Source: Methanosarcina sp. DH2 (GTDB lineage: Archaea > Halobacteriota > Methanosarcinia > Methanosarcinales > Methanosarcinaceae). Taken from it: a stretch of 64,000 bases of DNA. The stretch is from contig NZ_WJBI01000017.1 of NCBI RefSeq assembly GCF_020804225.1, forward strand, positions 1 to 64,000. Reading direction: 5' to 3'. The position numbers and the translations under genes are program-made. A model generated the notes under the pieces. That model did no database searches. It was given only the letters and a program-made list of their open reading frames with translations, and was not told the origin of the DNA. Shown in pieces: positions 6,539 through 10,178 of this stretch (the first letter of the stretch is position 1; every line of letters starts with the position of its first letter).

Positions 6539-6934
6539 ATGCAGATTAAAGGAATTGCCCGCGATACTCTTGATTTTATTCTTGAAGCTAGCAGGTCAAT
6601 GGCTCCGGAAGAGTTTGCCGGGCTTTTGCAGGAGAAGGATGGCATAATCACTGAGGTGCTTATTCTTCCAGGCACCGAATCAAGTGATTCAAGCGCGGTT
6701 CTCAGGCTTTACATGATGCCGAATGTAAAAGCTGCAGGTTCGGTCCACAGTCACCCCGGACCCAATCGTAGTCCTTCAGAAGCCGACTTACACCTTTTTT
6801 CGAAAACCGGAAACTGCCATATCATAGTTGGCCGTCCCTACAACAGGCAGAGCTGGACCTGCTATGACAGGGGAGGGAATATTAGAGAGCTTCCTGTCCT
6901 TGACATAGAATTCGAAGAAGACGAGGAAATTTAA
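6539..6934 (+). CDS. JAMM/MPN+ metallopeptidase (archaeal Mov34/PAD-1 type)
   Basis: This 131-residue protein carries the full JAMM zinc site: Glu in PEEFAGLL, then HSHPGPNRSPSEAD (HxH followed about ten residues later by Asp, with the intervening Ser). Archaeal JAMM proteins of this size remove ubiquitin-like SAMP modifiers (desampylases) or process sulfur carriers. The C-terminus is acidic (EFEEDEEI). A TATA-like box near 6511-6515 about 26 bp before the ATG, with no Shine-Dalgarno, suggests a leaderless transcript. The fold and catalytic residues are seen directly. The substrate is inferred. Confidence 0.88.
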   Translation: MQIKGIARDTLDFILEASRSMAPEEFAGLLQEKDGIITEVLILPGTESSDSSAVLRLYMMPNVKAAGSVHSHPGPNRSPSEADLHLFSKTGNCHIIVGRPYNRQSWTCYDRGGNIRELPVLDIEFEEDEEI

Positions 6935-7030
6935 TAAAACAAAAAACGATGTGACTGTTTCTCCCTGCAGCATAAAGTTCTGTTCCAGGCATCCAGCGAA
7001 TGTTCAGGCAACGTCCAGGCTAATATCTCA

Positions 7031-7106
7031 ATCTCGTTCTCTTTAGTAACCTTAAAATCTCGTTCTCTTTAGTAACCTTAAAATCTCGTTCTCTTTAGTA
7101 ACCTTA
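7031..7106. repeat. Three tandem 26-bp repeats
   Basis: Near-identical 26-bp units start at 7031, 7057 and 7083, and the third is cut short at about 7106. Each contains CTCGTTCTCTTTAGTAACC. They lie between the JAMM gene and the promoter of the small Cys4 gene. No open frame covers them. Function unknown. Confidence 0.85.
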
Positions 7107-7217
7107 ACTGTTTTTTTCATTATTATGCCTTAAAAAGTGGCATTTTTCTTCGGACCTGCCTGCTGCCTGCCTTATCCCCTACCAAAAACATTTTATTTAC
7201 AGATACACATTATTTAT

Positions 7218-7326
7218 GGGATACACCCTGAACTTCATTTAAAATGAAGCAGCTTTAACTTCAAGGTTGTATCCGGGAAACATATCTGGGACTCAAGAAC
7301 CAGATAGCCTTCACGTATCTGGAGGT
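7218..7326 (+). promoter_or_regulatory. Structured 5' leader, candidate riboswitch or thermosensor-like element
   Basis: A TATA-like TTTTATTTA at 7191-7199 places transcription start near 7218. The RNA would open with GGATACA (7219-7225) pairing with TGTATCC (7268-7274), enclosing the hairpin CTTCAT/ATGAAG (7233-7238, 7244-7249). Downstream, CCAGATA (7300-7306) can pair perfectly either with TATCTGG at 7283-7289 or with TATCTGG at 7316-7322. The second partner shares its GG with the Shine-Dalgarno GGAGGT (7321-7326) of the next gene. The two stems exclude each other, which is the layout of a translational expression platform. It does not match a riboswitch class known to me. Confidence 0.6.
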
Positions 7327-7336
7327 AGTAATCCTA

Positions 7337-7510
7337 ATGCCTACATGCCAAGACTGCAGATTTTATACGGCTATTGATGAGCTAAAAGGCGAATGTTTCA
7401 GCCTCGGATTTGAAGTACGCGGGAAAACCGATTCCAAGAAGTGCCCGGAGCGGGCTTTCAGGCCAAATAAAGGTCCCAAATCGAAAAACGCCGGAGCGGC
7501 AAGGTATTAA
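7337..7510 (+). CDS. 57-residue Cys4 protein, possible small iron-sulfur/HiPIP-like or zinc protein
   Basis: A 57-residue protein starting MPTCQDCRFY with GGAGGT ten bases upstream. The four cysteines are Cys4, Cys7, Cys20 and Cys36 (CxxC-x12-C-x15-C), enough for one metal or iron-sulfur site. The C-terminal third is basic (RPNKGPKSK). The spacing recalls the small subunits of benzylsuccinate-synthase-like enzymes, but I cannot confirm homology. Its conspicuous structured leader and own promoter argue that it is expressed under a specific condition. Function unknown. Confidence 0.7.
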   Translation: MPTCQDCRFYTAIDELKGECFSLGFEVRGKTDSKKCPERAFRPNKGPKSKNAGAARY

Positions 7511-7758: not shown

Positions 7759-10178
7759 TCAGCCGTTTTGTTCTTTCTTATCTGTTCTGTTTTGTTCTTT
7801 CTCATCTGTTCTGTTTTGTTCTTTCTCATCTAACCATGTACTTTCGCCATCTCTTTTATCCCAATTTATAGGAATTGCGAATGCAAAGGTGCTCCCCTCA
7901 CCGGGACTGCTTCTGAACCAGATATATCCTCCATGAAGATTAACAATCTGCTTAACCAGTGAAAGTCCAAGCCCCGTTCCCTGGGACGTTTTTGAGGAAA
8001 ATGGATCAACCTGGCTGAACGGCTTGAAGAGTTTGTGCTGGTCCTCAGCTTTTATCCCGATTCCATTGTCCTTAACCGTTATTTCTACCAGGTCTCCTTT
8101 CTTTCTTGCTTCTATCTTTACAGGGCTATTTTCCTGGGAGAATTTTATAGCGTTATCCATAAGATTGTACATTACCTGAACAAACCTGGCTTCGTCTGCA
8201 AGGATGCTGGTAAGATTGCTATCTACATAGATTTCAATTTTGATGTTTTTCCGGTCTGCAATTGGAGATAGAAGATTCTTTATCATGTTTAGCTTATTAA
8301 CAAGTTCAAACTCTTTATATTCAAGCTCCAGTTTTCCGGCCTCTACTTTAGAAAGATCCAGAATGTCATTAATCAGATTAAGAAGATGCTTTCCACTCCT
8401 TGAAATATTGCCGGTATACTTTAGCTGTTTTTCATTCAACTCCCCAAAGGCTTGTTCATGCAAAAGATCTGAGAATCCTATTATTGAGTTAAGTGGAGTT
8501 CTCAGCTCATGACTCATATTTGCAAGGAACTCGCTCTTGGTACGGTTCGCAATTTCTGCAATTTGTTTTTCCTGAAGAAGTTTCTCTATTGCTTTCTTTC
8601 CTGTAATATCCGTGCAGGTTTCCAGAACGCCTATGATCCTGCCATTATCATCAGTTACCGGGATTGCCTGGACAAACCAGGAGTTGCCATCCTCTGAAGT
8701 AAATTCCCCTGACTTTTGATTTCCTTTCAGAAAGATCTCTTCAAGCTTCAGGTTTTCAACCAGGGGGCTGCTTATGTCCGAAATATCTTTAAGGCGTATT
8801 CCCATTGCTTTTTCAAGGTCCATATGCATATATTCAAGAGCAGCTTTGTTTGCCCAGGTAATTTTAAGCTGAGGATTTACGAAAATAACCAGTTCGTTTA
8901 AAGAATCAAGAAGGACTTTCTTTTCCCTCTCCTGGGCCTTTAACTCCTGTTCTGCCAGCTCGATTTCATTCAGCATCCCGTTTATTTCCTTTGAGAGACG
9001 ATAGAGTTCATCGTCATCTTTTAAAGTCAATCTTTTAGAAAGATCTTTTTCCGATCTGATTCTTGTAACGAAATTATCAATCTCACCAAGTCTCGAAACG
9101 AAGAGACTGTCAAGTAAAACTTTAACTCCAACCCCTGTCACAAGCCCGGTTAGCACAAGGAAAAAATACATATAATTCAGAGCTTTTTCGCCGTTCAAAT
9201 ACAGATCTCTGGGGAAATCGGCTCTCATAATAATTGCAGGCTGGCCTGACACGTCCATTAACTCAAAATAACCTGTTATCTTCTCTTCACTGAAGGGTTC
9301 GACAAGAGCCCTATCCGGAGACCCGGAAAAATTTTGAAATTTTGCTTGAAAATCGGAAGGAATATCTTCATCAATCCTGTACATAGAAATTGAAGAACGG
9401 GTAGTTTCTCTGAATTTTTCCAGAAGAGCACTGTCTAAATACCTCCCGAAAATTAAAGTTCCTTTCACAGGCCCTTCATATTTTGTCGTAAGGATCGGAT
9501 GGCAGGAGATAAACATAGGGTTTTCATCAAGCAAAACATAGCCGCTTATAACATTATCTTCTGACTTTATGGAAAGAACCCCGCTTTCTATCATTTCAAT
9601 AAGCTCTTCAGGGACCGGTTTTTCCTCACCTGTGTTAATGTCTACCGATTTTGTATAGACAAGCGAGCCTGTATCATCCACAAAAAGCATAACATTTACT
9701 TTGAGTCCGGCAAGAGTCTGGTTCTGAAGGTTTACGTTTATATATGAGCTCATCCCAAAACAAGGTTTACTCTAAAATCAATAAGAATCTCAGAACTGTT
9801 TTCCGTGATCAAAAACACGATTGATTATTCAAAATTCGCAGTTTAGAGGAGTAGTTCTGAGTTTTGGGATCGGCTCTATCCCTGATTCCTGTCCTCGATA
9901 AAACGGTAAGTATCGTCCCAGCATGCCCAGTCCTGGACCATATTATCAAGATAACTCTGTTCGGTCGAAACTACATTCTGTACTTTTTTTACATTCTTCA
10001 ATGTATCAGCCTGTTCGAGCTCCAAAAAGTTTGAAAGCTGCATATTATAGGTAAATGTAAAAGTAGCAGTCAGAACGACAAAAATTAGAATTGTTATTAT
10101 AAAAACTTTTTTACTAATATCTATTCCGAACACCCCACAGGCTATGAAGAAAATAGATAATCGAAAGCTAAAAAGCAA
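7759..10178 (-). pseudogene. CHASE4-HAMP-PAS sensor histidine kinase, split by a miniature insertion
   Basis: The two parts are one gene in the same frame. The N-terminal part (9876-10178) has a membrane helix and the first half of a CHASE4 domain (DWACWDDTYRFIEDRNQ), then a TAG contributed at the insertion edge. The C-terminal part (7759-9753, 664 residues) resumes CHASE4 at YINVNLQNQTLAGLKVN. It continues with a second membrane helix (about 195-217), HAMP, PAS (about 283-395), HisKA with FLANMSHELRTPLN, and HATPase_c with DNGIGIK and GTGLGLSL. The join Gln-Gly-Tyr-Ile-Asn is restored if the insert and a short AT duplication are removed. An ATG at the insert edge could still allow translation of the rest, but without the first membrane helix. 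The C-terminus ends in a repeated EKEQNRTD tract. Confidence 0.82.
9746..9876. mobile_element. 131-bp MITE-like element inside the CHASE4 kinase
   Basis: The ends GAGCTCATCCCAAAAC (9746-9761) and GTTTTGGGATCGGCTC (9861-9876) are 16-bp terminal inverted repeats matching at 14 positions. Further subterminal matches lie around CAGAACT and AGTTCTGA. AT-rich flanks (TATAT and TATC) suggest a 2-4 bp target duplication. There is no coding capacity. Lone ends of the same family occur near 29699-29737 and 43773-43795, so it belongs to a family active in this genome. Confidence 0.78.

Follow-up and report, generated by a model that had tools for sequence, protein, structure and literature searches.

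In the genome of Methanosarcina sp. DH2 the gene of a small protein with four cysteines (the Cys4 protein) is preceded by a leader in which the heptamer CCAGATA can pair with either of two TATCTGG copies, the second of which reaches into the Shine-Dalgarno sequence (SD). Within the window analysed here (a stretch of 64,000 nucleotides) this arrangement had been read as a candidate new riboswitch, composed of an aptamer and a translational switch with mutually exclusive stems. The question is whether the leader is a conserved RNA element and, if so, whether it works by such an exchange of stems. It makes a convincing orphan cis-regulatory RNA, and translation is the step on which it most likely acts. 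To our knowledge, few natural cis-regulatory RNAs have been described in archaea.

Layout of the leader and its surroundings

The elements on which the original prediction was built are present in the sequence (Table 1). CCAGATA and both of its perfect TATCTGG partners lie exactly where they had been placed, the second partner indeed shares two G residues (G7321-G7322) with the SD GGAGGT, and a small product with four cysteines is encoded downstream.

Table 1. Features of the Cys4 leader, its promoter and its gene in the window
Feature	Position	Strand	Remarks
BRE CCAAAAA and TATA box of predicted promoter	7182..7199	+	TATA-like TTTTATTTA at 7191-7199
TATA-to-start spacer CAGATACACATTATTTATG	7200..7218	+	identity 0.87 between clades
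P1 5' strand GGATACA	7219..7225	+	exact in sequence; in consensus; pair-keeping changes
P1b 5' strand CC	7227..7228	+	past 1x1 mismatch C7226/U7267
Inner hairpin CTTCATT/AATGAAG of P1 domain	7233..7249	+	window-specific, identity 0.50
P1b 3' strand GG	7265..7266	+	pairing-change test
P1 3' strand TGTATCC	7268..7274	+	exact in sequence; in consensus
P2 5' strand TATCTGG	7283..7289	+	window minimum free energy (MFE) fold, consensus, kept-pair test
P2 3' strand CCAGATA	7300..7306	+	consensus; directly abuts P3
P3 5' strand GCCUUCA (anti-SD)	7307..7313	+	near-invariant, 31 genomes
Second TATCTGG, ALT partner of CCAGATA	7316..7322	+	mostly P3 loop plus UGG
P3 3' strand UGGAGGU	7320..7326	+	contains SD GGAGGU, 7321-7326
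ORF of the 57-aa Cys4 protein	7337..7510	+	putative distant HiPIP-like/BssC-TutF-like small Fe-S protein

The leader RNA of the window folds into the three stems P1, P2 and P3, and does so better than shuffled sequences (z -2.9, 3/200). P3, a hairpin of 7 bp with two G.U pairs that covers the whole SD, is present in both the MFE fold of the window and the consensus; this main regulatory stem (GCCUUCA/UGGAGGU) was absent from the original prediction. P2 and P3 abut with zero nucleotides between them in nearly all genomes, and in the absence of a gap they could stack into one rod. The closed domain that had been placed at the predicted transcript start is upheld as far as P1 is concerned, which is exact and conserved, but not for its inner hairpin, which is window-specific and therefore rejected as an aptamer core. 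Likewise rejected were the outer GGGA/UCCU closing pair of the window MFE fold, which by eye is not kept across species, and a conserved upstream ORF, since the ATG at 7244 falls in a variable region and is absent from relatives.

The predicted promoter has a cross-clade identity of 0.82-0.83, against 0.32 farther upstream, and the distance from the TATA box alone predicts a transcript start at about 7216-7220. The spacer between the two is conserved at about the level of coding sequence. The motif GATACA occurs at 7202-7207, within the spacer, and again at 7220-7225, with an inverted TGTATC at 7268-7273, and an operator in the spacer, besides the RNA element, is possible. Upstream of the promoter the 26-bp unit AATCTCGTTCTCTTTAGTAACCTTAA occurs in three perfect head-to-tail copies (7030-7107). 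A Prok-JAB domain gene (6539-6934) precedes the Cys4 gene on the same strand and adjoins it in most Methanosarcina genomes, which makes a functional link possible. Elsewhere in the window, a 24-bp repeat at 7765-7831 lies at the 3' end of a histidine kinase gene and encodes a repeated DEKEQNRT-like C-terminus, and the sole Rfam match is an eL15-Euryarchaeota ribosomal protein leader (RF03144; 20245-20296, 46.9 bits).

Conservation and pairing of the stems

The Cys4 protein was found in 28 Methanosarcina genomes (27 others besides that of the window) and in three genomes of a sister genus, and the leader could be aligned in every one of these. A covariance model built from 27 leaders matches 28 of 31 Methanosarcina genomes and three of four sister-genus genomes, always at the Cys4 gene. 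There is one real copy per genome and a single target gene; no further copies were found in the host's own genome or in the family, the second match in the own genome (E=2.9) being noise. Leader and gene are both missing from four genomes (G017, G018, G020 and G064). In one assembly (L002:1669-1960) a stretch of N lies between two partial leader copies, probably an artefact of scaffolding that joined two strains. A search against Rfam, which had been proposed along with the riboswitch, matched the leader to no family at either gathering or permissive thresholds, the best sub-threshold matches being unrelated, and no description of this leader was found in the literature searched.

Few non-coding stretches of the locus are as well conserved as the leader. 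When the two main clades are compared, identity rises from about 0.32 ahead of the promoter to 0.83 within it, drops to 0.50 in the apical portion of P1, and reaches 0.76-0.94 in the blocks containing the two strands of P1 and the anti-SD with the SD. As a control, the sequence preceding the neighbouring JAB gene mostly stays under 0.35; exceptions are its final 30 bases, which are promoter-like, and a patch between -180 and -160. The consensus fold of 27 orthologues amounts to -38.0 kcal/mol, versus -18.9 in column shuffles that preserve conservation classes and gaps (z -5.8, 0/500), and the 3' half of the leader alone gives z -4.0. Since the reverse complement of the alignment likewise gives a significant fold (z -4.95 vs -5.5), folding alone is no proof of the RNA strand, which is argued instead from gene orientation, the G.U pairs and the SD.

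P1 and P2 are supported by pairing-preserving changes. They were compared with a null in which columns evolved independently on the tree of the JAB and Cys4 genes, with the observed number of changes kept. Within the genus 96% of the P2 pairs are kept versus 82% under the null (p=0.002 with a hand-chosen one-base bulge in one clade; p=0.15 ungapped), and double changes are in excess (p=0.014); restricted to the five inner pairs, the test gives p=0.05. Pairing retention in P1 plus P1b has p=0.02, and p<0.0005 is obtained for P1, P1b and P2 together; P1b as a helix is not significant on its own. Among the changes are U-A to C-G in P1 in two genomes of the sister genus, G-C to A-U in L028 (P1) and in L012 (P2), C-G versus U-A in the outer pair of P2, and, in both L012 and L020, C-G to U-A in P1b.

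P3 is the best-conserved stem and almost invariant: its pairs hold in 30 of 30 sequences tested, and, apart from one outer pair lost in L028, its few changes preserve pairing, those in L022 being C-to-U changes only. Because its partner strand is the SD, P3 hardly varies and cannot covary, so that its support rests on conservation plus energy. Its Boltzmann probability is 0.7-0.97 in most species; it is predicted to be weak or displaced in L022, L024 and L026, with the weakest P3 (-3.4 kcal/mol) in L022. Of 193 start sites sampled in the own genome (400 kb plus the window, some spurious ORFs included), 13% at leader scale to 21% locally are at least as SD-occluded, and 21% have a stem of at least 7 pairs over the SD. 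Occlusion is thus not rare, and in one genome it is weak evidence; the argument lies in its retention over 31 genomes. A conserved anti-SD pairing over the SD, the mark of an SD-sequestering leader, is present.

The alternative stem (ALT), formed by CCAGATA and the second TATCTGG, is unbroken in the window and most species. In about 7 of the 31 genomes it is disrupted, by an A.G mismatch in five species, by a deletion in L020 and by a mismatch at the end in L006, and it is lost in L028. Kept pairs show no excess over the tree-based null (p about 0.15) and there are no double changes, so the compensatory changes looked for among the orthologues occur in P1 and P2 but not in ALT. At about -8 kcal/mol, versus -16.7 for P2 and P3 together, ALT falls short by about 8 kcal/mol, and in nearly all species it has a Boltzmann probability close to zero. 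It would compete with P2, which is transcribed earlier, and may be an intermediate in some species. The proposal that mutually exclusive stems form a conserved switch is therefore not borne out; the conserved feature is P3.

The Cys4 protein

The product of the ORF (MPTCQDCRFYTAIDELKGECFSLGFEVRGKTDSKKCPERAFRPNKGPKSKNAGAARY) displays the pattern CxxC...C...C, and its four cysteines are near-invariant among relatives. Weak profile matches were found to BssC/TutF, 4HPAD gamma and HIPIP, that is, to small HiPIP-like Fe-S proteins, and to the MasC subunit (chain 9o8u_C, E=0.012). The score of the window protein against PF08201 (BssC/TutF) is 14.1 bits, below the gathering cut-off of 25 bits, and among 26 relatives 21 give a weak match, at best with E=0.0012. 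As the Pfam match of the window protein stays under the curated cut-off, an Fe-S cluster in it is suggested rather than established. The structure model has a pLDDT of 46, which renders a fold search from it meaningless.

More distant relatives were found in ANME-1, the Archaeoglobales, Thermoplasmatales, Methanoperedenaceae and Asgard archaea. The Methanosarcina proteins end, at the C-terminus, in a tail rich in Lys, and in the distant orthologues tail and leader are both missing; L092, of the sister genus, has a short tail and has kept the leader. A neighbourhood that recurs in distant archaea (L096, L099, L103, L106 and L109) has the Cys4 gene behind a gene of the AbrB family, in several cases with a radical-SAM-like gene (CIYCY motif) nearby. 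In the Methanosarcina genome L028 (1501-1674) the fourth cysteine is lost (KKYPERAF) and the leader is degenerate, which suggests that leader and protein decayed jointly. Among small proteins described in M. mazei, sORF_06 has four clustered cysteines (PMC11456600). Identity with MtrI, which is helical, has 68 aa and bears a zinc ribbon (PMC12774963), was rejected, as was identity with MtrR, which has 49 aa and no aromatic residues (PMC13370731), of which the Cys4 protein has several.

Possible modes of control and comparison with known systems

The leader, about 118 nt long, is probably a cis-regulatory 5' UTR, conserved in Methanosarcina and one sister genus, that covers the SD and restrains translation of the Cys4 protein. 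In the computed fold P1 closes the 5' end, followed by P2 and by P3 over the SD; the default state would be off or low. A trans-acting event, acting most plausibly via the P1/P2 domain, would open P3 and raise translation; candidate triggers are a small ligand, an RNA, temperature or ion conditions, and a protein, for which the Fe-S product itself is one possibility.

The aptamer-plus-switch layout of the original prediction holds for the structured leader and its link to the SD; a conserved unpaired core and two mutually exclusive conserved structures were not found among the orthologues, so that of the proposed new riboswitch the conserved 5' UTR structure is what stands. A metabolite or metal riboswitch, in which P1, the apical hairpin and J1/2 form the aptamer and the ligand shifts P2 plus P3 (off) to another state, perhaps ALT or an open P3, appears unlikely. 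The conserved 5' domain next to an SD-blocking expression platform, the integrity of ALT in the window and most species, and conserved A residues in the stretch joining P1 to P2 would agree with it, but the conserved nucleotides lie mainly in stems, the apical domain is poorly conserved and the junction is changed in the sister genus; moreover, only one gene per genome is involved, ALT lacks detectable pairing selection and no Rfam class matches. Autogenous or otherwise protein-mediated control is no less likely than a riboswitch for a small molecule, in view of the single gene, the lack of a conserved unpaired core, the joint decay in L028 and the joint absence of leader and gene elsewhere. 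Its specific form, in which the apo or cluster form of the Cys4 protein binds its own leader and cluster status sets translation, is a tentative proposal that we rate slightly above the riboswitch. Most autoregulatory leaders serve a single dedicated gene, distant orthologues without the Lys-rich tail are also without the leader, L028 combines a degenerate leader with a lost cysteine, and gene and leader are jointly absent from the four genomes named above. Yet L092 keeps the leader despite its short tail, and L028 is one draft genome in which general decay or sequence error is possible.

An RNA thermometer, or constitutive damping, with P3 melting with temperature or fixing translation at a low level and no ligand involved, is also doubtful. 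The best-conserved stem is indeed an SD hairpin with two G.U pairs, but conservation of P1 and P2 would then be needless, and the weakest P3 is that of L022, which may be M. thermophila TM-1, where a thermometer should be stronger. Least probable is a DNA-level element, in which the GATACA repeats and the GGATACA/TGTATCC inverted repeat bind a transcription factor and RNA folding is incidental. The strongly conserved spacer, the repeats themselves and the significant folding of the reverse complement fit such an element, whereas the stem changes mostly preserve RNA pairs (U.G included), P3 uses G.U pairs and matches the SD, and the first GATACA is missing in several species; a transcriptional operator could coexist with the RNA element. 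It is a rather speculative reading that the leader represents a new archaeal RNA sensor class for a small Fe-S protein, which would read iron-sulfur, metal or redox status, directly or via the apo protein, and open an anti-SD hairpin stacked on the sensor stem.

The leader is short, serves a single gene and is conserved across a genus and its sister genus, and since genetic tools exist for the host organisms it is directly testable. The Cys4 protein looks like an orphan Fe-S protein, and knowing what triggers the leader could shed light on its role as well. In BssC/TutF and 4HPAD gamma, its weak profile matches, the CxxC...C...C pattern recurs; it differs from them by a score below the Pfam gathering cut-off, by its Lys-rich tail, and by the absence from the window of a noted radical-enzyme partner beside its gene. 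The translational SAM-II and preQ1 riboswitches resemble the leader in having a 3' hairpin over the SD beside an upstream folded domain, but the Cys4 leader has neither a conserved ligand core nor a conserved alternative stem, and has a single target. With autoregulatory leaders, of ribosomal proteins and of the archaeal L7Ae k-turn type (PMC6298567), it shares a gene-specific structure, likely translational control and a narrow range; in contrast, the Cys4 product is no known RNA binder, and no k-turn was noticed by eye in the leader. M. mazei is known for its long 5' UTRs, which Methanosarcina mRNAs have likewise, and leader-based control has been reported for the CODH/ACS and methyltransferase genes, the mechanism of the CODH/ACS leader being described as uncharacterized (PMC3600222). 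In those leaders, as proposed here, the 5' UTR controls the gene, although the genes are different ones (PMC3600222).
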